Positions 3,166 through 63,035 of a stretch of 64,000 nt of DNA are shown piece after piece. The stretch is from Coptis chinensis (Eukaryota > Streptophyta > Magnoliopsida > Ranunculales > Ranunculaceae). The position numbers were made by a program, and so were the translations under genes. The notes beneath the pieces were generated by a model. The model saw nothing but the letters and a program-made list of their open reading frames with translations, had not been told where the DNA came from and ran no database searches. The first letter of the stretch is position 1; every line of letters starts with the position of its first letter. The DNA lies in contig CM027385.1 of the NCBI GenBank assembly GCA_015680905.1, positions 17,056,501 through 17,120,500 of the forward strand, given 5' to 3'.

Positions 3166-3905
3166 CCTGCAAAAGCATGAAAACCATTATTATTTTAAAT
3201 AAAATGTTCTTAAGGGGTTATTTACACAGCTTTGGGTCCTTATCACCTGCAAGTTTTTGAAATGATCTAAACGGAAGTGCCATGGTGTGATATACCACAA
3301 TGCTCTAGTGAAAGAGCATTTCAACAAAATATGATGAACAGTATCAATGGGCGAGCCACATAATAGGCAACATTTATCTGGAACATGGAACAAAAGATTT
3401 ATATGATCTCTAGTTGGTAACAACACATTATAATAACATTTCCAGGCAACACATGGTAGCGCAGCTCTAGGATGATTTTCTATATGCCAGAAAGCCAAGT
3501 TTGTGGGATTATTTTTTGTTACAGAGTGAGTACTTAGACTATGATACATTAATTTGACTGTGTGTTCTCCATTTTTTGTGTGTCTCCATTTAAGGTTATC
3601 TTCAGTGTTGCGTTTTAAGAGAAAAATGTTTTGAATCTTAAAACTAGTCTGGGTGTCAAAAAGATTATTGAGAGTATCAACCTTCTAGGATCTAGTGCTT
3701 GTGTCAATGGGGTCAGAGACTTTGTTGTAGTCAGGATGACCTATTGTGTCTTGTAGTCAGGATGACCTCTTGTGTCTTGGGGTACTTTCCCATATGGTGT
3801 ATTAGGCGGTATCCATGAGTCTTGCCAAATGTTGATGTTATCACCAAGACCTACTTTCCAAATAGAGTTGTTTACTAAGGATTGTAGATTTTTTTTTTTT
3901 TGAAA
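3166..3905 (-). mobile_element. LINE 3' fragment with zf-RVT domain
   Basis: The minus strand encodes the zinc-binding region found after reverse transcriptase in plant L1-type LINEs (zf-RVT, PF13966): a CCLLCGSPIDTVHHILLKCSF segment gives the C-x2-C...H...C pattern, preceded by HINLLFHVPDK and followed by an ALW motif. The frame is best between 3190 and 3549; upstream coding is decayed. No RT core is present, so the copy is 5'-truncated. A 26-bp direct duplication (TGTAGTCAGGATGACC...) lies at 3726-3777. A T run sits at 3890-3901, and element A interrupts the flank at 3917. Confidence 0.7.
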
Positions 3906-3917
3906 CCTCTTTGGAAC

Positions 3918-5393
3918 TGATAAGAGCCCAAAACTGTAGTTTTAACCCCTTAACTATCATACTTTTAGACCAATTATGTGAGTAATAATTAAGAGTTAAC
4001 ACCGATTACGTGTTTTATGCATTTCGGGCTTCAAAGTCCATGATGTGCGAAATGTACCACTTTAGCGAGATAAAGGAGCAAAGGTCGGTTACTAAGGAGT
4101 TCCGTGATTAAAGGTCAAGATTCAAGAAGATAAAGCCTTTCTAAAGCCGGTCAAAAGCTGAAAAGTCGACGCGTAAAAACATCATACAAGTCGTGAGAAC
4201 TTCCGAAGGCCATATCTTTGGACTCGGACCTCGAATGGGGTCTACCTTATGTCAAAACGACCGCTCGGGAAAGAGCTTTCCAATGGTCCAAGCCTTGACC
4301 CAATCAGAGGAGTAAAAGTGGACAAAAGTCTGTTGAAGCCAACTGCAGCTGAAGAGGCCTTTTGGATTTGAAAGAATTGGGTTTTGGGCACGATTCTCGG
4401 CCCAAAACATGGCTCCAAGCCCATGCACGATTTTTGGATCTAAAAGTATAAAAACAAAAGCTTAGCTCTTTGTTAATGGTAGATAGTTAGACCTAGATTA
4501 GAAATTAGATTAGTAGCCTCCATTAATTAGTTTTAGATCTCGGTTTTTAGAATTTCATTCCCTGTTTTTAGATTAAAACTTTAAATCATTGTTCTTTATT
4601 GATTAGATAAATAAAATAGTTATTCTTGTCAATTTTCGATTTTTTGTCATTTACAATTTATTAGATCTAATTTCAATTCTTGTTATCATTCAATTCTTAG
4701 TTATTAATTAGATTTCGATTATTGTTTAGTTAAATTTCATAAAGTTAGAATCTTTGTAATATGTTGTATTCAATTTCAATGGGAAATAATGGTTTGATGA
4801 ATCAAGGCTAAAACCTCAATTAGAGGGGTTGATGAAGCCTTGATGAAAACTTAGTTGTATAGTGTAAAAGTAAAAGCGTAGAGTTTATTCCATTCTAGAA
4901 GGTCGTGTTTCGCCATGAGAATGGGTGGACGACCTCACATGCTAGTTATAATTGGTAGAAATGCCATGTTAATTAGGGATTAGAACTAGCAATTCTGACT
5001 GTAAGAACGTAAGAATTGGATTACAACAGTCTATTCTAGGTGATTAAGTTGGATTCGAGGTGGATTCAATTCCCCTCTAATTCTTTATCTAGATTCAAGA
5101 ACATTAGTATTTCCATATATTTCGTAGTGACATTCAACATATTGCTTTCCATATTGCATTGTAGTATAATTCCCCTTCGTAAAGCTCTCATTAGACTTAA
5201 GACCGACAAATTAGACTAGAAAACATTCCATGCTAGAGAACTAGGAGTGGAACGAACTTCCTACTCCACTATATCTCATAGTATTGAGAGTAGAAACTTT
5301 GATAAAAATAGACACGTAGATAGTTTTAGTTTACTTGCGTTTTGAGTTCATCGTTCATTTCGTAGGTAAACTATTCATTTTTATGTTTTATCA
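3918..5393 (+). repeat. 5' LTR of element A
   Basis: Starts TGATAAGAGCCC and ends TTTTATCA. A TATA-like GTATAAAAAC lies near 4447. It matches 11668-13142 nearly throughout. A 98-bp fragment of the same LTR family recurs at 62937. Confidence 0.92.
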
Positions 5394-11667: not shown

Positions 11668-13142
11668 TGATTAGAGCCCAAAACTGTAGTTTTAACCCCT
11701 TAACCATCATACTTTTAGACCAATTATGTGAGTAATAATTAAGAGTTAACACTGATTACGTGTTTTTATGCATTTCAGGCTTCAAAGTCCATGATGTGTA
11801 GAAATGTACCACTTTAGCGAGATAAAGGAACAAAGGTCGGTTACTAAGGAGTTCCGTGATTAAAGGCCAAGATTCAAGAAGATAAAGCCTTTCTAAAGCC
11901 CGGTCAAAAGCTGAAAAGTCGACGCGGCGTAAATGCTTGACACAAGTCGTGAGAGAACTTCCGCGTATCTTTGGACTCAGATCTCGGAATGGGGCCTACC
12001 TTATGTCAAAACGACCGGCTCGGAAAGAGCTTTCCAATGGTCCAAGACTTGATAAAATTAGAGGAGCAAAAGTGGACGAAAAGTCTGTTGAAGCCAACTG
12101 CAGCTGAAGAGGCCTTTTTGGACTGAAAGAATTGGGTTTTGGGCCTGATTCTTTGGCCCAAAACATGGCTCCAAGCCCATGCACGATTTTTGGATCTGAA
12201 AGTATAAAAACAAAAGCTTAGCTCTTTGTTAATGGTAGATAGTTAGACCTAGATTAGAAATTAGATTAGTAGCCTCCATTAATTAGTTTTAGATCTCAGT
12301 TTTAGAATTTCATTCCCTGTTTTAGATTAAAACTTTAAATCATTGTTCTTTATTGATTAGATAAATAAAATAGTTATTCTTGTCAATTTCGATTTTTGTC
12401 ATTTACAATTTATTAGATCTAATTTCAATTCTTGTTATCATTCAATTCTTAGTTATTAATTAGATTTTGATTATTGTTTAGTTAAATTTCATAAAGTTAG
12501 AATCTTTGTAATATGTTGTATTCAATTTCAATGGGAAATGATGGTTTGATGAATCAAGGCTAAAACCTCCATTAGAGGGGTTAATGAAGCCTTGATGAAA
12601 ACTTAGTTGTATAGTGTAGAAGCGTTGTAGAGTCTATTCCATTCTAGAAGGTCGTGTTTCGCCATGAGAATGGGTGGACGACCTCACATGCTAATTATAA
12701 TTGGTAGAAATGCCATGTTAATTAGGGATTAGAACGAGCAATTCTGACCGTAAGAACGTAAGAATTGGATTACAACAGTCTATTCTAGGTGATTAAGTTG
12801 GATTCGAGGTGGATTCAATTCCCCTCTAATTCTTTATCTAGATTCAAGAACATTAGTATTTCCATATATTTCGTAGTGACATTCAACATATTGCTTTCCA
12901 TATTGCATTGTAGTATAATTCCCCTTCATAAAGCTCTCATTAGACTTAAGACCGACAAATTAGACTAGAAAACATTCCATGCTAGAGAACTAGGAGTGGA
13001 ACGAACTTCCTACTCCACTATATCTCATAGTATTGAGAGTAGAAACTTTGATAAAAATAGACACGTAGATAGTTTTAGTTTACTTACGTTTTGAGTTCAT
13101 CGTTCATTTCGTAGGTAGACTATTCAATTTTATCTTTTATCA
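11668..13142 (+). repeat. 3' LTR of element A
   Basis: Starts TGATTAGAGCCC directly after the purine tract and ends TTTTATCA before the target duplication GGAAC. It is nearly identical in length and sequence to 3918-5393. Confidence 0.92.
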
Positions 13143-43748: not shown

Positions 43749-44224
43749 TTTAAAAAAGGGTCCTACTATTGACACCCTCTAAATTGTGTTGGCAGACCCT
43801 GGCCCAACTCGGTCCAATTTGGGGTTTGTACTTATGTTGGCCACTACACAAAGTCGCGTACCCCATTCACTAAGAAACCAGTACTAACTAGTTTCAACCT
43901 TCGTGTATTTCTTCTTTTTTTGTATATTTCTTTTCTCTTCGACTACCCTCTAACCGCATTCACCATATTATCACCAAATTTTGTATCGATATTTGTGAAA
44001 AATTTAAAACATTTGTAGAAATTTTGAGTAAAATTTATACGAGACTTTGGCACAAAATTTGTTAACCCTAAATCCTAAACTAGTTGATTCACAATTGCAC
44101 AAAAGAAAATGGAAAATAACAAGTTTAGATTTAAAACTAAATATTATTTGGAATTTGCAAATGTTTGATTATAATCATTCTTATTCAATTTGTTTATGTA
44201 AACCCTAACTTTGAGTTTTAAATG

Positions 44225-44290
44225 GAGTCCTGTTACTGCCAGACCCCAATTTGTATTGGGCAGACCCCGAGTTGGGCCGGGGTCTGCCCA
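44225..44290 (+). repeat. Left terminal inverted repeat of the inner MULE
   Basis: GTTACTGCC-GGACCCCA--TTGT-TTGGGCA-ACCCC is shared, inverted, with 53985-54038. A second local palindrome (GGGCAGACCCCGAG...CGGGGTCTGCCC) lies just inside, at 44268-44299. Confidence 0.8.
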
Positions 44291-44299
44291 TTGTGTTGG

Positions 44300-46388
44300 G
44301 CGCAACTTCTAAACCATACACCCCCCAACCAAAACACTCAACGAACTAAGAAACCGCAATAGCCAATACCACCCTTCGTCAAATTCACAAACCCTCGATT
44401 TCGAAACTCTCTATCAAACCCTCGATCAAAAACTCTCCATCAAACTCTCAATTTGATAACTCTCCATCAAACTCTTTCGAAACTCAACCCTCGATTTCGA
44501 AATTCTCCATCAAACACTCGATAAAAAACCCTTGATCTGTGCGGTCTGCTTAGCTTGGTCGATCTCGAACTAGTGCTTAGCTTAACATCACTCGATCAAT
44601 TATATTATATATAAGGTCAGTTTATTACAAATTTTCTTCTTCCTTGTTAGTTGCTATTATACACTTGATTACTTGTTTTTTAAATGGGTCATTCATTGTT
44701 AAAGGTTAACAACATAACCATATTTTGCAAACTTAAACTCTTGTATTAGTATGAGTATTGAGATTGAGATTGAGATTGAGAACACAATATGTTGATTTTT
44801 AAGTTTTCATTCTATTGTTATTGATTTTTAATGTTGTTTACATTTGTTAAAGGTTTGTTTTTCTTTAGTTCAATTGATGAAAAATGGAGAAATGTTGCTT
44901 GTATGTTCTGACAGGCGGAACAGTTATCTAGCTTATTATAATACTAAAACAAAAATGTTTAGGTATAGTGATACTGGTTCTCTTTGGAGAATATTGCCTC
45001 ATCTGGGGAGCCTCATATCGCCAAGGAAGACGGGTTAACAAAGATAGAGGTAACTAATATTATAGTCTGACTTAAATATTATGCTTGTATTTTGCTTATA
45101 TGCTTTCACATTTTCAATCTTTGTCCAATGATCATCTAATTCCGTGAATATTGTTGCTCTGTTTTTCATGAACGTTGTTGACTAAGAGTTCCTTGCGGAT
45201 ACTTGACATATTGTTTTTTGGTATTATCAGATGTAGTTTGCTTAGGATGTATTATCATCTCAAGTGAACCTCATGTTTGATCCCTAAATTTTGTAAAAAA
45301 AAAATAGTTTTGACAAAGTAACAAGTGGTGGGTAATGATCTTAATGGTATATTGTGTAGACAAATTGTCATTGTTTTCATTTTACATAGCAAAGGGGCGC
45401 AGTTACGCCCACATTCCCATGTTTATTTACAAAGGGAAAATACAAGAATATAAAGGGATATGATGATAAGTGTATTCTGCTACAGTGTTACTGTGATTAG
45501 TAGCACTATATTAAGAAGACTTTAGAGGAGGAAGGGTGAAAATGACTTGTAAGATGAAATAGCGGAGAATATAGAGATGTGACTAAAAATGGAAGTAGCG
45601 GAGTTCACAGTGGTGGAGGAGCAGAGAAGAAAAATAACATTCATATTGTTATTGGCAACTTTAGAGACGGGAAAGACGGACAAAATGTTAGAAACTCTTT
45701 GTGGAGGCATAGTCGACTTATTTTCTTGTTTCCCTCATTTACTAAGACTGAAGAGTTCTGGCCTAGTCTGAAATTGTCGGGGTTACATCTCTAAGCTGTT
45801 TGATGCTTGGAGATAAGAGATTTTAATTAGAATAACAACTGTTTCTTTTGTCACAGTTGTTTGTGGGAAAATTTGGTCAACTATAGGAATATTGTTTTGT
45901 TACTGAATCTCTGATTGTGATTCGTCCAAAGCTGATTAATAATGCAAGGGCCTCTAGGATGGAGTTCATAAAAATAATTGTAGGTTTGTACTTTACAAGA
46001 AAACTTAAGACAGAAAAAATTTCTATATTGTCTTTGAGGAAAGTCCCACCATAATTAACGTGCGTCCCCATCAAATGTCTTGTTTATCTCTGGGACACAA
46101 AAAAAATATCTATAAGAGGGATGGCTTGGTGCTTCTCTCCTTAGAACTCCTCCATATACAAAAGTGCATGTATAAAATTTTCACTTGTCTAGATGTATAA
46201 ATTGCGAACTTGATCATATCTCCTTACCGACTAAAATTTTTTGATGGCTAAATTTGATCATATTAATTATGTTTGCCTGAGATAAAATAAAATTTTGTAG
46301 TTTTACATACAATTGATACATTATTCACCCCTTTGTGTTTCTCGGCAAACTTATTCTTCTGTGTTTGTGTTAGTTATATTTTGTAGCA
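44300..46388 (+). other. Leader region of the PMD gene inside the inner MULE
   Basis: Holds degenerate tandem copies of CTCTCCATCAAACTCT and ACCCTCGATTTCGAAA (44385-44530), pyrimidine-rich as in 5' leaders, and AT-rich sequence to the PMD start. No coding sequence can be supported. Short GAGATT repeats lie at 44756-44781. Confidence 0.45.
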
Positions 46389-48835
46389 ATGCTTCGAACA
46401 AAGAATGTGAATGTGAAGAATGTAGCAAAAAGTGTTTTCACGGGTGCTAAGAAGTTGTTAGGTGGGGGGAGTAGTAGTTCAGGTCGCGAGGAGCCTGAGA
46501 AAAAGAGAGAAATGGCAACAACCACCTCGGCATCAGTGCGTAGAGGGGATCGGAAAGCGGATGATCCCAGTAATTTAGTAAGTGGTGTAGAGTTAGGAAA
46601 TCAAAAGAAAAGAAAGCGGACAGTTCTGAGTGATGTAGATGTAGATGTAGATTAAGATTTAGATGAAGATGTAGATGACGTAAATATGGATCGTGGGAAG
46701 AGTGTAGTTGTAGGTGATGGTGAAGAAGATGATAGTGAAGAAGATGACGAAGAGGGTGTTGATGATGCAGAAGAGGAGGACGCAGAGGATGAGGATGATG
46801 ATGAGGAGGAGGAGGAGGAGGATGACGAGGAAGTCCCTGTACCTGTACCTCCAGTGAATATTGTGAGAAAGTCCAACAATGACTTGGAGTTCTAGAGAAG
46901 TGTTTATGGAGGTGGCCCTCGTGTGTCACATCTGTTGAATGACTATACGGTGCACGTGGCTCGTGATGTTTGGGAGGGGCAGGTAATATTATCATATATT
47001 GTCTATTAGTATTTAAATTTTGTATTACGAAACCTTGTGCATACATTAATACTGAGTTTTTATTGTTTTAGGCAGAGCGAGGGGTGTTGAAATGTCATGG
47101 GCACCTAAACAAGTTGGTACAATGGGATATCGTCGGAGAGTGTTCAGATTGTTCTAATTTTCATGTGGAGCTTCAAAGGATCGGTTTATGTGCTCTGGTC
47201 TTAGGTGTATATAGGCATCAGGATCCTGTGTTGGTCTCTGTGTTTGTGGAGAGGTGGCATCCAAAGACCAACACGTTTCATATGCCATAGGGCGAGATGA
47301 CAATCACGTTGGACGATGTTTCCCAACTCTTAGGAGTTCCGATCAGAGGCAAAGCAGTGACTGGGGACACTGATTTGACCCTAGAACAGACAAAAAGACT
47401 CCTCCACCAAGGTCTTGGCATACCCATGGACAAGATAGATGTGGAGATGAAATCCAATAAGTTCACTTCCAAGTTAGGATGGATTTCTTGATGAAGTAGT
47501 TTGCTGGGAAGGTAACATATGAAGATTTACGGGATGAAAATGGGGTTGTTGTGAAGAAGGCATCAACCCAAAAAGAGTTGCGGTTTGCTGTGAGAGCTTA
47601 TTTGTTGTTTTTCTTTGGATGTACCGCCTTCACCGACATGTCTGGAACTGCAGTTCTCGTTTGTTATCTGAGACTGCTTATGAAATTTGCCAAGATCAGA
47701 GACTACACGTGGGATGCAGCCTTACTGGCTTACTTGTACAGGGGTCTTGGGACTGCCACAAGTGCCAAGGTGAAGGGTGTTTCAGGCTATTTCACTCTCC
47801 TACAGGTATTAGTTTTTTTGTTTTTCTTTTCAATGTCAATTTTATCTATCTATTACAATATTAACTGGGTGTCTATATTAATCTAGGCATGGATTTATGA
47901 GTACTTCCTGGTGTTCAGGCCATTCCCAAATGATGACTATCAGTTGAGCATGTCGATAATGCGAAAGTACTCGATTACTCGATCTTTTATGCTAGCACAA
48001 CAGCTGCATTGAAGCATACCCGAGCGATGATTGATAATATGACTTGTACCGATGTAAGCATTTTTGTATGTAAATAGTTTTATTTATTAATTGATATTAT
48101 TAGTATGTGGTTAATGATTAATTTCCTCGATCATATGCTATTTGACAGGTTGAATGGTATCCCTATACTAAAGTCCGAGCTACACGGCCGGTGGATGAAA
48201 TAGCATTTTTCGAGGGATTTATATGCTTTCTTGATAATATCGAGTAGTACAATGTTTTGAGGGTTGTGCGTCAGTTGGGTCATATGCAATTTGTACCTTC
48301 AGATCCCCCAAGACCAAAGACCTCGACGCGAACTATTTCCGGACGCGGGTATGATGTGAAATTTAATATTGTGTCGTCCTATTGGAGTAAATGGCAGAAT
48401 CACTTGATACAACTTGAACATCGAGGACCCATTCCGTCTTATCCATGAGAGTGTGTTAGTAGATATATGAGTTGGTACGAAAACAATAGTCATATTCGAA
48501 TGATAAATCCTGATCATCTTAATCACTACTCCCTACAGAGTCTTCCATATCATAATCTGGTGAGTTAATACCTTACAACGTTAGGTTTTTTTATTTTTTT
48601 TTTTTTTTTTTTTTTATTTTTTGGTTTTGTTTTGGTATTTTATAAATGTAAATGTATATACTAATGTAGTTTTTCGTTTTAATTTTGACAGCACCCCGTC
48701 GTCGATGAAATTTCTCGCTTGCTCAATCAAGGCCTGCAATTGGGTGGGGCTGCGATTCCAGACAATGCACAGAACGAGTTCATGGAGGCATACAATTTGA
48801 CCCGGTGCAAGTTCATTGGCGGACGATATCGTTAA
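46389..48835 (+). pseudogene. Plant mobile domain (PMD, MAIN-like) gene carried by the MULE
   Basis: Five exon-like pieces are joined by GT-AG introns: 46389-46982, 47072-47805, 47887-48053, 48149-48559 and 48692-48835. The N-terminus is basic (LRTKNVNVKNVAKSVFTGAKK), followed by a long Asp/Glu run (46660-46850). The PF10536 domain follows: ERWHPKTNTFHMP then GEMTITLDDVSQLLGVPI, ELRFAVRAYLLFFFGCTAFTD, WDAALLAYLYRGLGTATSAK, YEYFLVFRPFPNDD, and the end LTRCKFIGGRYR. In-frame stops lie at 46653, 46893, 47288 and 47489, with a frame shift near 47480 and more decay in exon 3, so this copy is dead. PMD proteins occur in plant transposons and, domesticated, as MAIN/MAIL factors in silencing and genome stability. 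The gene converges on the transposase. Confidence 0.85.
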
Positions 48836-49475
48836 GGAGCATTGGATTTAGCAATGTTGAGTTTGGTTAGTTTAGGGTTTAGTGTGTTGAGCATTGGCAG
48901 TCTTGTTGGAAGTGTGTTATAGAGGCAGTCTTTTGATGATGTTTATTTAGATCCTTGGTCTGTCTTGTACTAGTGTTTATGTGGAGAAGTTGAAGAGAGA
49001 TTGATAACTGAGTTGTTTAGTTTTTTGATGTAAGTGGTTATTTTGTGTTGGAAGAGAATGATGTAAGTTACTCTTGCTGGTTATGTGAATGGTTTGTTTG
49101 TCAGTTCTCAATCTTATGTGTGCATGCTAGTGTTTAGTTTCCTCATAGAGTTCTGAAAGAGTTCAAATTGTCCTGCTGCTGATCTATTAAGCAAAGATAA
49201 CTCTATTAATAATCTAATGCAGAACATAATGTTTAGTGCCATTTTTTTTGGTTACATGTTAATATTTGAAGTTAGATGATATTGTATAACAAGTGCTCAT
49301 TGTTGTTTATGTGAGGGTTAACTGAGAATGGAACTTACATGAATTAAATTTTCACACAAGTTCTTGTATTTTGTTTCGTTTTATATAATCTTGTTGCCAA
49401 TATGCCAAAACACCGTTTTTTTGCCAAAACATTGATAAATTGTCAAAACATGAAACATCTGTTTTTTTGCCTCTT

Positions 49476-49800
49476 GAACGGTGTGGCCACACCGTTCAAG
49501 AGGCAAAAAAAACAGACATTTCTTTTTTTCCAAGTTTTAGTCTCAAACGACATGGCCACACCGTTTGGGACTAGACTAAGTCCAAACGGTGTGGCCACAC
49601 CATTCAAGAGGCAAAAAAACAGACAAGTCTTTTTTTCTAAGTTCAAATCCCAAATGACATGGCCACACCATTTGGGATTTGAACCAAACGGTGTGGCCAT
49701 GTCGTTTGGGACTAATTCCAAACGGTGTGGCCACACCGTTCAAGAGGCAAAAAAACAGAGAAGTCATTTTTTCCAAGTTCAAATCCTAAAAGTCATTTTT
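49476..49800. repeat. Palindrome array A between the convergent MULE genes
   Basis: Three units of roughly 100-120 bp. Each has the perfect 14-bp palindrome GGTGTGGCCACACC (49480-49493, 49588-49601, 49724-49737) and the spacer CAAGAGGCAAAAAAACAGAC + AAGTCTTTTTTTCCAAGTTC. Between cores lie longer inverted pairs: GGCCACACCGTTTGG and CCAAACGGTGTGGCC, 10-12 bases apart (49553-49598), able to form a 15-bp hairpin. The array lies between the PMD stop (48835) and the transposase stop (49933). It is not CRISPR: units are degenerate and palindromic and the spacers are shared. Confidence 0.9.
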
Positions 49801-49932
49801 TCCAAAATCAAACAAACATACATACATCCATACAATTAATTCGACAAAAAAATACCATCAAATTTAAGAAAATTGTATCAAAAACCAAATTACAATTCCA
49901 ACCACATGAACAGTAATTACATAGACTTATTC

Positions 49933-52900
49933 CTACTCAACATCTATTATTGGTATTTCGGACCCATCATTAGTGTGCTCGTCTTCCAATACTAAATTGG
50001 GAATGTTCAATGCCATAAATTGCGCTTGTCTTGCTTGTAATGCAGTATCCCAACTATCTGCAATTAAGTGTCGAGCTCTACGCTATCTTCGCATCGGTTT
50101 TGGAACCGGACAATCATCAATAAGTTCAACATGGACAAAATGACATCCCTGTACGTAAGCGGTACCCAACACTTTCTTTACTCTCTCAGGATTTGCTTGG
50201 GTTCTCAGTGGCAAAATAAGATGGCAGTACATACTTCCTAAATATACGAGGACGACATTAAATCTCGAAGCAAATAGATATCCAGCAAAGGGCATACTCA
50301 TCCACTTACCAGGGGGTTCCCAACCGCATTCATGGGAAATTGTAGGTTTCACGTACCTAATCTCACTGTGAGTGTACAATGTACAATATAGGGGGAGGTT
50401 GTCATTAAGTTCTTGTAACAACTCATTTCTCATCCACGACCACTCTTCCTGACTTCTTCCCAGTGCAATGCACATTGCTCTATACCCGCAATTGCCATCA
50501 CCTACAGGGTAATCCACTTTAACAATATATTTGTGTAGTTCTTATGGAATATCCAAACCGTAATGTTTCGGCCCCCTCAGGATGTCAATGTCTAACTTTT
50601 GAGGTGATTTTTGAGAAGAGTTATTCTGTGGTGTGGTTGTTTTAGGTGGTAAAGGTGATTTTTGAGAAGAGTTATTTCGTGGTGTGGTTTTTTTTGGTGG
50701 CAAAGGTGGTTTTGGAGAAGACTTCTCTGTAGGTGGGTTTGGAGTAGCGTATTTCGATGGTGTGGGTGTTTTATGAGAAGGCTTGGAATTTGGCGTACAT
50801 TCCGATTGTTGCGACGAGACCCACTCTTCATGCTCACGTTGGGAATGTTCAAAACCAAATGAATCTCGCTTTGAAGAGTTCTCATCCTCAGTTGGAAGCT
50901 TTCTCTTGCAGCTACCCTTAGGCCGACCTTTGGTTTTTGCCTCCTCATGAGGTGGTTCTAGCCATGTACTTTATGGCACAACAATCTCCATAAGTTTCCT
51001 AACCATAACCCTCTGCTCTTCTTCAGAAGCCATTTTATACCTTTTCATAAACATATCCATCGAAGGTCTACAATCGGGACCAACACCCACCGACACACTT
51101 TTGAAAAAGCGGTGAGTTTTCCAAAAGGGATTGATAGCACTCAAAGATATGGAACGTTCTTGCTTTTGAAGTTCAATGATTTCGTGAGCACATGGCAATC
51201 CATGACTGGTGCGCAAATAACACCCACAAATGAACTCAGAGTCCTTAGCAGCACGGCTTACACGGGTATCTAGTTCTTCATAAAGCAAGTCCAAACATTT
51301 TCTTGAGACTAGGTTTCTGAGTTCACGAAATAAAGGAATCCGGTGGTGGTGCTGGGTTACAATCAGACTCTTCTCAAACGTACCTCTAATCTCAGACAGC
51401 TGGATCTCTAAAATCGGGTGGATCAAGTAAAACATACTTAGAAAATCATGTCTGTTTGTGTTTCCTAGAACACGTTTCACCTGAGCATGAGACCCTTCGA
51501 CTCTATTGGTCGTTGTACTCCCAAAGTGAATGTGTTGATCTGTCCAACAACATACGAATCGATCCTTATAAGGCAACCAAGTCTCTTGCAGATAACTAAC
51601 AAAATTGGAGTACTCAACCCTATACTATTTTTCCAAAGCAACAATTCTACGGTTGAAGATATCCTCAGTCCTCGATTTCACTACAGTGTTCCACGAGAAC
51701 TGGCCTTTTTCTACAAGTTCTGTGGTGGGAAAAAAATCATTGCATTTCTGAAGGACGCACATAGAGATATGCCATCTACAGAGATGCTTGTGCACGTCAG
51801 GAAACACAATATCAGCGGCACTCATCAAGGCTAAGTCCCTGTCAGACACGATCACAGATGGCCTTTCTTCACCCAGTAAGCCGTTAAACTGACGCAAAGC
51901 CCACTCATAGTCTATCGTTGTTTCGGACTGGAGCAACACTTGACAGACCGTGAAAGACTTCCAGGTTGAAGTTACCCCCACAAATTGTACAAAAGGCCAC
52001 TGATACTTATTGGTTTTGTAGGTTGCGTCTATGATGAAAACTTTTGGAAAAGTCCGAGCCATTTTAACACCGTCCGGATGGGCCCATAACAATCCCGTTA
52101 TCTCATCCGTATTCACATCCTCCCTCACCTCCCCGAAATAATGGTTTTCTGCTAACAACTCATGCAATCTCTGCATTTGCGAGTGATCGTTCATATCCAA
52201 TGTCCTCACCTTGTGCCTGACATTGTAAACTTGATATATGCTAGATAGGTTATCAGGAAACGTATGTCTGATGGACTTCAAAACTTCTTTAGGCTTAACT
52301 CCATTTTGAGTCATCTCTGACAAGAACTCGAATTGTGGAACAGTCAGTCGAGTAGCAAATGCATGTCCTTCAAGGGTCTTCGCCAATGGATGGTTGTGAA
52401 CACCATTAAGAACGACAATTTTCCAACTATCAACAGTGCCGCGTTGGAAAATACATCTGAACTTAAATGGACATCCACGTTTCTTGGTTCCCGTATTTCT
52501 CTTATTAGCTTTCTCTGCTTTTTTGCGTGAACGATACACGCTCGAACTCTCGCAATCTAAATCCAGCCTTGGTACTCGGTTCCCGTTAGCATTCTGCGAC
52601 TTCCCAATTACCACAATCACATTACATTGTTTTCCCCGAGCAGTTGCCCAACCAATTACGTCATTACGTGTATGAAATACCGAAAGATATGAAAGAAAAC
52701 AACAATCAATAAACTAATATAATTTCATTTAGAAAATAAAAACAAGTGAAAACAATGCCTACTATGTACCTCTTCCGTAGTAAATATTTATGTTGTATCC
52801 ATTGAAAGCGGTTGAACATCATCCATGTCATTCGAGTTTCCAGAGTTCTCGAAACACACCGAAGGATCCTAAATAAAGAACAGTTGTTAATTGATGTTTG

Positions 52901-53806
52901 CCTTAAGTACCAAATGCCACAAACACACCGTTTTACCACTATTTGTGTTTTTCTATGTTCAAATCCTAAAACAACATGGCCACACCATTAGAGATTCCAA
53001 AAAACAGAACTTCATATTTTTTCCAAGTTCAAATCTCAAATGACTTGGCCACACCGTTTGGACTGGCCAAGTCGTTTGGGACTAAGTCCAAACGGTGTGG
53101 CCACATCGTTCAAGTGGCAAAAAAACAGACAAGTCTTTTTTTCCAAGTTCAAATCTCAAATGACATGGCCACACCGTTTGGACTAGAGTCCAAATGGTGT
53201 GGCCATGTCATTTGCGACTAAGTACAAACGGTGTGGCCACACCGTTTAAGTGGCAAAAAAATAGACAAGTCTTTTTTTCCAAGTTTAGATCCCAAACGAC
53301 ATGGCCACACCGTTTGGGACCTAGTCTAAACGGTGTGGCCAGGTCCCAAACGGTGTGGCCATGCCGTTTGGGACTAAGTCCAAACAGTGTGGCCACACCG
53401 GCAAGTTTTTTTTAGTCCATATGCCAAACGACATGGCCACATCATTTTGGACTCAGTCCAGACGGTGTGACCAGACCGTTTGGTGTGAAATACAAACGAC
53501 CTAGCCGGGTCGTTTAATTACTACATGCATAATTATTACATGTATAATTACTACATGCATAATTATTACGAGTATAATCACTGTACACATCAATAATTAT
53601 TACACGTATAATTATTACATGTATAATTACTACATGCATAATTACATTTAGTTTAGATTTACCTTATTCTTATTAAATGCATCATCATCCATTCCTCTAT
53701 TTTCTTCACTTTGAACTTGTTCTACATTTTCTTCTTGAATGGGGTCATGATGCATTACATTTTCTTCGTCATCTTCATGTTCTAAAATGGGTTTGGGCTC
53801 TTCCAT
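49933..53806 (-). pseudogene. MULE transposase with C-terminal OTU cysteine-protease domain
   Basis: Three minus-strand exons, all phase 0: 53806-53663 (acidic start MEEPKPILEHEDDEENV), 52868-52770, and about 52680-49933, giving about 996 codons. Exon 3 holds a FAR1/MuDR-like zinc region (FHTRNDVIGWA...CPFKFRC...NGVHNHPL), the DDE core (D in FIIDATYKTNKYQWP, D in VIVSDRDLAL, E in TTTNRVEGSHAQVKRVLG, with CRWH) and a SWIM finger (CGCYLRTSHGLPCAHEI). After a Pro/Lys/Ser linker with three repeats of NNSSQKSPL type comes an OTU domain (VGDGNCGYRAMCIALG with the catalytic Cys, GCHFVHVEL with the likely His). No frameshift is seen. Five in-frame stops (one in exon 2, then 51625, 50971, 50542, 50083) are all TAA or TAG. 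The exon 3 acceptor lacks a normal AG. Array B fills intron 1. Confidence 0.9.
52965..53520. repeat. Palindrome array B in intron 1 of the MULE transposase
   Basis: Same unit as array A: GGTGTGGCCACACC (perfect at 53230-53243, near-perfect at about 53094, 53193, 53333 and 53391), inverted pairs CCACACCGTTTGG/CCAAACGGTGTGG, and the spacer GGCAAAAAAACAGACAAGTC followed by TTTTTTTCCAAGTTC. It starts just inside the acceptor side of intron 1 (52869-53662). To its right (53520-53645) is a degenerate repeat of ATAATTATTACATGTAT words. Confidence 0.9.
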
Positions 53807-54038
53807 TAGTGTTTAGTGTTAGTGTTAGGGTTTAAGGGTTTAAGAGTTTATGGTTTTTTACGTGGAAGAGAAGAGAATAGAAGAGAAGGGCTGAAAAGGT
53901 TGCAACAAGTCAAATTCACTTTGGTTTGGGAGGTGCCCAACACAAAACAACTTTTGGGACCAATGACACATTTGTAATAAGTGTTTTAGTTTTTGGGGTA
54001 TGCCCAACACAATATGGGGTCCGGCAGTAACGAATACC
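53807..54038 (-). promoter_or_regulatory. Transposase promoter side and right TIR of the inner MULE
   Basis: The 230 bp between the transposase start and the element end hold a telo-box-like TTAGGGTTT (53825-53833) with further GGGTTTAAG repeats and the right terminal inverted repeat (53985-54038). As in other MULEs, the terminal repeat probably contains the promoter. No clear TATA box is seen. Confidence 0.5.
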
Positions 54039-54201
54039 TTTAAATGTGGGGGGAGAAGGGCTATAAGAGGTTGCCAACAGGTTAACTTGATGTATTTGGG
54101 ACACAAAATATGTTTTTTAGGTCAATGACAAACTTATAATAATTTTTTTTTGTCTGCCCAACACGAAATGGAAGGTGCCCATAGCAGAAGCCTTTAAAAA
54201 A

Positions 54202-62922: not shown

Positions 62923-62936
62923 CTTTTGGCACCATT

Positions 62937-63035
62937 GATAAGAGCCCAAAACTGTAGTTTTAACCCCTTAATAATCATACTTTTAGACCAATTATGTGAG
63001 TAATAAGTAAGAGTTAATACTGATTACGTGTTTTT
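62937..63035 (+). repeat. 98-bp piece of the element A LTR family
   Basis: TGATAAGAGCCCAAAACTGT and the next 80 bp match the start of the element A LTRs (3918, 11668) closely, then similarity stops after GATTACGTGTTTTT. Confidence 0.85.

Follow-up and report, generated by a model that had tools for sequence, protein, structure and literature searches.

Structure of the element

The stretch analysed here, referred to as the window, comprises 64,000 nt of the Coptis chinensis genome (C9:17056501-17120500), and a Mutator-like element (MULE) spans window positions 44225-54040. It carries a transposase with an OTU-like domain on the minus strand and, convergent to it on the plus strand, a plant mobile domain (PMD) gene. 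The window element is a dead copy, with stops in both genes and a broken frame in PMD; however, the same fusion with a convergent PMD recurs genome-wide and in a sister lineage, which supports a pairing that is not accidental. The features from left to right are as follows, with the basis of each in brackets; L numbers denote stretches fetched from elsewhere in the genome.

44225..44268, plus: left terminal inverted repeat, about 45 bp (comparison of both ends)
46389..46983, plus: PMD exon 1, with many acidic residues, interrupted by two in-frame stops (limits set by eye; relatives are similar from 46377 onwards)
47072..47805, plus: PMD exon 2, PF10536 core, one in-frame stop and a frame break near 47489 (Pfam; boundaries by eye)
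47887..48053, plus: PMD exon 3, frame break (by eye)
48149..48559, plus: PMD exon 4, interrupted by two in-frame stops (by eye; also matched by relatives)
48692..48835, plus: PMD exon 5 (by eye; matched in relatives)
49445..49796, unstranded: palindromic array between the genes, core GGTGTGGCCA, outer half-sites CCAAACG/CGTTTGG (repeat search)
49933..50082, minus: C-terminal end of the transposase-OTU frame, beyond the last of the four in-frame stops (by eye, from comparison with L018)
50083..50541, minus: OTU-like domain, GDGNCGYRA ... CHFVHVEL (motifs; Pfam sub-threshold)
50542..50970, minus: Ser/Pro-rich linker of the transposase-OTU frame (reading frame)
50971..51624, minus: C-terminal part of the transposase, SWIM-like CxC...CxH (by eye; 75.6% identical in the lineage C copy L042)
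51625..52713, minus: N-terminal part of the transposase, with AFT/FAR1-like domain and MULE DDE domain (Pfam)
52948..53517, unstranded: second palindromic array, upstream of the transposase gene (repeat search)
53995..54040, minus: right terminal inverted repeat (comparison of both ends; similarity of L039/L040 ends at 54040/54041)

The preliminary description of this locus had read the minus-strand gene as a transposase with DDE, CRWH and SWIM motifs fused in frame to an OTU domain, and this reading was upheld. The segment 52713-51625 matched the MULE domain PF10551 at 1.7e-23, over the cut-off, and AFT PF08731 at 5.9e-7, and the CRWH, SWIM-like CxC...CxH and OTU-like GDGNCGYRA...CHFVHVEL motifs were recognised by eye in the same frame as the MULE domain, the SWIM-like motif (within 50971-51624) having no Pfam match. 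The frame runs from 52713 to approximately 49933 and is interrupted by stops at 51625-51627, 50971-50973, 50542-50544 and 50083-50085, past the last of which relatives stay open for about 50 further codons. The fusion is real, because L018 retains a single open frame of 688 aa from inside the MULE domain, via the OTU-like domain, to the C terminus. Deamination of glutamine codons was considered as the origin of the in-frame stops and dropped, as L018 has other residues at these positions.

Assignment of the transposase tail as a putative OTU-like domain is motif-based only. The Pfam otubain profile PF10275 was sub-threshold in 17 of 24 OTU sequences (best E 0.036), the PDB profile search returned a single match (5jze_A, E 0.6, across the GDGNC stretch) and none with the OTU domain by itself, and no OTU model of NCBIfam matched. 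Residues D15, C18 and H134, which we take to be the active-site Asp, Cys and His, are conserved in 90% or more of the 24 aligned OTU sequences and altered in single copies. Plant MULE-OTU proteins are present in the databases under misleading names.

The five-exon PMD gene described on the opposite strand was likewise found, with splice sites readable by eye; exons 1, 2 and 4 carry stops, and the frame is broken within exons 2 and 3. PF10536 matched three pieces of exon 2, at 3.1e-4 and 1.6e-6 (below the cut-off) and at 6.1e-16 (above it; 47500-47886), and matched L044, of the family B introduced below, at 1.2e-39. DUF1985 was not found in Pfam scans of the PMD pieces from the window and relatives.

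Both genes are bracketed by inverted repeats, as had been proposed. These are short and imperfect, at about 45 bp compared with 195 bp in the family B element B1. The sequence GTTACTGCCNGACCCCAWW, composed from the two ends themselves, matches the window at 44232 (plus) and 54013 (minus) alone, and two matches arose in 1 of 100 shuffles. Local alignment of the ends scored 53 against a best of 34 in 500 shuffles, although, of 500 pairs of window stretches drawn at random, 2 outscored them (83 and 128). Better support for the element end comes from the relatives L039 and L040, whose similarity to the window breaks off at 54040 and 54041. As a candidate for the 8-10 bp target duplication of MULEs, TTTAAATG flanks the element on both sides, but TTTAAA is palindromic and CCTT(T) also occurs in relatives.

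Recurrence of the two-gene arrangement

Searches were conducted over an assembly of 935.6 Mb in 116 contigs, retaining the best 150 of 1487 candidates for the OTU-like domain, the best 150 of 1798 for a PMD exon piece of the window and the best 150 of 1904 for the corresponding L042 piece. Pairs were counted between the 150 OTU places and the union of 290 PMD places, so that counts of places and pairs here and below refer to the matches listed; absence from these matches means little, and copies were therefore checked by sequence.

At least 62 OTU-PMD pairs lie within 5 kb of the OTU end, 45 in lineage A, to which the window element belongs, and 17 in its sister lineage C, and all 62 are convergent. 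In 200 trials of random placement there were on average 0.11 such pairs and never more than 2. Within 20 kb there were 73 convergent pairs, 2 divergent and 1 on the same strand. Spacing in the 62 pairs ranges from 1.5 to 4.5 kb and is mostly 2.0-2.7 kb, with 2.28 kb in the window.

Of 34 OTU places at least 90% identical, the window included, 14 had a listed PMD. Thirteen of the remaining 20 were fetched (L039, L041, L043, L075-L084), and antisense PMD exons were present at the expected place in all 13, with exons 4 and 5 alone visible in the 2.3 kb fetched for L079, L080 and L083. A PMD was listed for at least 31 of 68 OTU places at 72-89% identity and at least 17 of 48 below 72%. Thus no related MULE without PMD was found among the OTU copies examined, and there was no indication of separate PMD element ends inside 46-49 kb, a region across which relatives are collinear; these are the two observations that could have made the pairing a peculiarity of this copy.

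Divergence and selection between lineages A and C

In the listed pairs, lineages A and C are 66-71% identical over OTU and about 60% over PMD, and within 5 kb A-type OTU domains are accompanied by A-type PMD genes and C-type by C-type; the single same-strand pair, 9 kb apart, places a C-type OTU near an A-type PMD. Over longer alignments the A and C transposases are 78% identical (2917 bp) and the PMD genes 67% (1317 bp).

Ratios of nonsynonymous to synonymous substitution (dN/dS) were obtained from Nei-Gojobori counts on A and C sequences chosen to be stop-free and thus biased to intact copies. Between A and C, 49 comparisons of the PMD exon gave a ratio of 0.27 (mean dS 1.15), and 80 comparisons of OTU gave 0.38 (mean dS 0.58). 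Synonymous distances between the window and L042, which involve the broken window copy, were 0.52 for the transposase, 0.76 for OTU, 1.1-1.8 for the exon-2 pieces of PMD and about 0.7 for exons 4 and 5; inflated values from frame-broken copies such as A1 were left unused. Because the PMD distances exceed that of the transposase, PMD is older or faster-evolving than its transposase. The two-gene MULE is real, recurrent and under selection.

A second MULE family with the same PMD

Among the best 150 PF10551 places, 11 have a convergent PMD at 5.2-6.2 kb that is 73-90% identical to the window PMD, and these constitute family B; two more placements were recorded, one with the genes on opposite strands 8 kb apart but on the other side, and one with both genes on the same strand. 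A search with the B transposase placed a convergent PMD within 20 kb of 12 of the best 150 places, 11 of them within 9 kb. The L044 transposase matched FAR1 at 2.4e-14 and the MULE domain at 1.3e-33 in Pfam and, judging from an alignment at 24% identity, the B transposase is a distant homologue of that in the window. No OTU was matched in L044 or near the listed B transposases, a result in which a strongly diverged OTU could be missed and in which the L044 transposase is itself broken. The C4 copy, B1, is about 13.1 kb in total, with inverted repeats of 195 bp at 96% identity and, by eye, a flanking 9-bp duplication TTACTTAAA. Common ends for A and B were looked for and rejected, as the left end of B1 shows no terminal-repeat similarity to either window end.

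Identity between the PMD genes of A and B is 86-89%, the window copy reaching 87.9% over 2554 bp, compared with 88-92% among A copies. As this is near the within-A level, whereas A and C are 78% identical over the transposase and 67% over PMD, an exchange of PMD, together with the array, probably took place between A and B later than the split of the A and C transposases. In a small PMD tree, A was grouped with weak support (67) and B lay alongside without resolution. Family B argues that PMD may need no OTU partner, and the occurrence of the same PMD convergent to a FAR1-type transposase, where no OTU was found, weighs against a strict OTU-PMD partnership of the kind initially suspected.

Palindromic arrays

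Both window arrays consist of CCAAACG...CGTTTGG palindromes, with inverted repeats of 25-33 nt at 97-100%. Across the genome, CCAAACGGTGTGGCCAYRYCGTTTGG was counted 622 times on the forward and 614 times on the reverse strand, a site whose core is symmetric being scored on both, compared with 0 and 0 for a reversed control. An array lies downstream of PMD in all 11 B loci (L044 and the 1.6-kb stretches L065-L074), with 7-27 half-site matches each and approximately none in shuffles. In B1 the motif sits between the genes alone and the subterminal repeats are of another kind, as far as L044 reaches, while one other B locus (C1:33558376) has motif sites upstream of the transposase too (C1:33560047, 33560150).

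Lineage C also has an array between the genes, with 34-bp spacing (repeat search, 4 copies) and the same outer half-sites but a different core; no half-site was matched in the eight stretches fetched upstream in C (even-numbered, L086 to L100). Spacing of 34 bp is also the commonest in A, on the basis of 5 pairs. The exact core GGTGTGGCCA was counted 69 times in 5 A elements, 117 times in 11 B and 0 times in 9 C, and the outer CGTTTGG 48, 205 and 109 times in the same elements, the stretches being of unequal length. Because A and B share the core at 24% transposase identity and C is without the exact core, the array core tracks PMD rather than the transposase, and the palindromic array, which the preliminary description did not include, is a better candidate partner of PMD than OTU. 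The arrays at 49.4 and 53.0 kb were also considered as the ends of a smaller element around the transposase, which was rejected since relatives are similar on both sides beyond them.

A possible role for PMD and the array

Three components of the account are very probable: an in-frame OTU-like tail on the transposase, a convergent PMD in A and C, and arrays in the inter-gene region, joined in A by one upstream of the transposase. A fourth is probable, namely that a PMD 86-89% identical to that of A, with the same array core, occurs in family B with a distant transposase and, in one complete element, different ends. The account as a whole, of a dead two-gene MULE with an exchanged PMD-array unit and a mechanism involving the OTU tail, PMD and the array, is put forward tentatively, at somewhat short of an even chance. 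Under it, the transposase would cut and paste the element, as follows from its family, and the OTU-like tail may trim ubiquitin off the transposase or off proteins present where the cut is made. PMD itself, or a complex that it recruits, would recognise the array and keep its own element open to transcription despite host silencing, as VANC does via VANDAL tandem motifs, and PMD plus array would form a module useful to any MULE acquiring it. That PMD recognises the array and counters silencing in this way is possible but leans towards the unlikely. A broader proposal must be called doubtful: PMD and array might be a portable, transposase-independent anti-silencing cassette that reads a drifting palindromic code and is passed between MULE families, VANC-like but independently built from a silencing-factor domain, with the OTU tail as a second layer in some carriers.

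A number of observations weigh against this account. PMD proteins are not known to have a DNA-binding domain. No OTU profile exceeded its curated cut-off in the Pfam, NCBIfam or PDB profile searches, and the presumed catalytic residues are missing from some OTU copies. Of the 150 best PMD places, 92 are without a listed OTU or B transposase, and 138 of the 150 best B-type transposases have no listed convergent PMD within 20 kb. Within-group dN/dS is higher than that between A and C (0.41-0.55, and 0.83 for B copies, several of which are frame-broken). C arrays retain one-mismatch relatives of the A half-sites (22 of the CACACCGTTTGG type), and of the 34 motif clusters on contig C1 only 11 have a listed gene within 12 kb. 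The array is 1-2 kb from PMD, and the two could travel together simply through linkage; A and B also exchanged these sequences more recently than A and C split, so that the common core may reflect no more than the shorter time.

An alternative, which we regard as rather unlikely, is that PMD is a transposition helper comparable to maize MURB, promoting re-insertion, with the arrays as linked passengers and silencing not involved. Typical MuDR elements do have two genes in opposite directions, MURB is reported to be necessary for insertion, and the opposite ORFR of Abermu has higher nonsynonymous (Ka) and synonymous (Ks) divergence than its transposase gene (PMC9168764, from the text available), as is the case for PMD here; however, a closely similar PMD serving two MULE families with transposases 24% identical would be odd for the partner of one transposase complex. 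The arrays could instead be binding sites of the transposase, with PMD independent of them, and their position on both sides of the transposase gene in A and upstream of it at the B locus C1:33558376 would suit this. Such binding sites are nonetheless improbable, as A and B have the core in common at about 24% transposase identity while A and C, with transposases 70-76% identical, do not, and in B1 the motif is confined to the region between the genes, with subterminal repeats of a different kind as far as L044 reaches.

Still less probable is that the arrays are host silencing targets, grown by slippage and giving hairpin transcripts and small RNAs, and that PMD is a captured host gene with another purpose. 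The inverted repeats of 25-33 nt at 97-100% would fit hairpin formation and tandem repeats have been discussed as targets of RNA interference (PMC5735166), yet the recurrence in A, B and C of the inter-gene position, the outer half-sites and the 34-bp spacing despite a differing core suggests constraint. Finally, the pairing of PMD and transposase as an accident of the window copy, through nested or adjacent elements, can be given almost no probability. The left 2.1 kb is not shared with the relatives fetched, the right end is duplicated and the left end is recognised in one of three A relatives, but the 62 convergent listed pairs, the 13 of 13 sequence checks and the collinearity of relatives over 46377-54041 stand against it. 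Two nested or adjacent elements are contradicted by these collinear relatives (L039 and L040 follow the window from 46377 to 54040/54041, deletions aside, and L041 covers PMD and most of the transposase), so that accidental pairing is refuted for the PMD-transposase unit and remains for the left 2.1 kb alone.

Under the favoured account of PMD acting through the array, a PMD shared by two distant MULE families with one array would offer a concrete candidate target sequence, and A, B and C would provide three natural combinations in which protein, array and transposase are shuffled, making the anti-silencing idea directly testable. Transposon-borne PMD proteins are suspected of opposing the host pathway served by their relatives MAIN and MAIL1, and an OTU-like domain in a MULE would be a further case beside the ubiquitin and SUMO proteases that other DNA transposons carry.

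Relation to known systems

The locus had been put forward as an under-described two-gene system, which held in part: antisense PMD in plant MULEs (PMC6446971) and the suggestion of an anti-silencing role (PMC5418596) are already in print, whereas searches of the open-access literature found no paper describing an OTU domain on a MULE transposase. No title on PMD-linked arrays appeared among the PMD papers listed, although no search was directed at such arrays. In a table of Dupeyron et al. 2019 (PMC6446971), plant MULE groups 42 and 47-50 have antisense PMD, and groups 45 (VANDAL) and 46 have PMD with the strand unstated; these clades resemble the window element in combining MULE transposase and PMD in one element. 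OTU does not occur in that paper, and its FAR1-bearing plant groups 35 and 36 are listed without PMD, whereas A and B here combine FAR1/AFT-type N termini with PMD. MULE-borne PMD was suggested as anti-silencing in 2017 (Ikeda et al. 2017, PMC5418596); in the part of that paper at hand, PMD-C is fused to MULE transposases, likewise a capture of PMD by MULEs, but as fusion proteins in grasses and Amborella, unlike the separate convergent PMD gene and the OTU-like transposase tail described here.

The short motifs bound by VANC are arranged as tandem repeats in its own element (Hosaka et al. 2017, PMC5735166). As described in that paper, the VANDAL/VANC system is similar in having a second MULE protein, tandem motif arrays in non-coding parts, and protein and arrays that diverge together; it differs in that VANC has DUF1985, not found in the PMD pieces here, where the relation to a target is one that we infer. 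MuDR (mudrA/mudrB) and Abermu ORFR share the oppositely directed second gene, that of Abermu evolving faster than its transposase, but PMD does not occur in PMC9168764, and the likeness drawn here is one of description. An OTU protease domain on a transposon protein is known from Ginger1 and Helitron, and is C-terminal in Ginger1 as here; the Ginger1 transposase, however, is of the integrase type (Gypsy-integrase-like), where the window element has a MULE domain, and the Mutator protease named in the same source is Ulp1 and not OTU (PMC2836005). OTU and Ulp1 domains were suggested there to act in transposition or repair in other transposons. Arabidopsis PMD proteins have been tied to silencing and to a promoter motif, with direct chromatin contact unproved (PMC7156037, PMC9899485).

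Flanking and unassigned features

The remaining features in and beside the element are listed below.

44269..46376, unstranded: left 2.1 kb upstream of PMD; beyond the terminal repeat not alignable with the fetched relatives (alignment with relatives)
53523..53660, unstranded: tandem repeat of ACATGYATAATTA type, near the right end (repeat search)
54053..54198, unstranded: beyond the element, a degenerate duplicate of the right end (53883-54044) (window self-comparison)

The 2 kb between the left end and the start of PMD could not be aligned between the window and A1, A2, A3 and B1, which are 86-92% identical over PMD and which, by arithmetic, have only 42-192 bp of additional upstream sequence in common with each other. 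The one A relative of three in which the left end was recognised is A2, from L040 and L106. Outside the element, 43791-43812 forms a 22-bp inverted match, with one mismatch, to the left-end region near 44267-44288. The second right-end copy at 54053-54198 finishes in the same CCTTTAAA and may represent a tandem duplication or the remnant of an older element. The tandem repeats at 53523-53660 include CATGCA, a portion of the DOWN motif (CATGCAGTTT in PMC9899485), probably by chance. The remaining 23 of the 34 motif clusters on contig C1, with no PMD, OTU or MULE gene listed inside 12 kb, are either solo arrays or have genes outside the matches listed. At C2:62772300-62776300 (L129), sampled from the 92 PMD places that lack a listed OTU or B transposase, a 93%-identical PMD is followed by a motif array and then, by eye, by a reverse transcriptase resembling that of a long interspersed nuclear element (LINE) in the position of the transposase.

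Elsewhere in the window, direct repeats of 1.48 kb at 3918-5393 and 11668-13142, 95% identical with starts 7.75 kb apart, resemble a long terminal repeat retrotransposon, and a 100-bp piece of this repeat recurs at 62935-63035. A zf-RVT domain (PF13966, 3.2e-8) at 3190-3684 on the minus strand is probably a LINE-type remnant.

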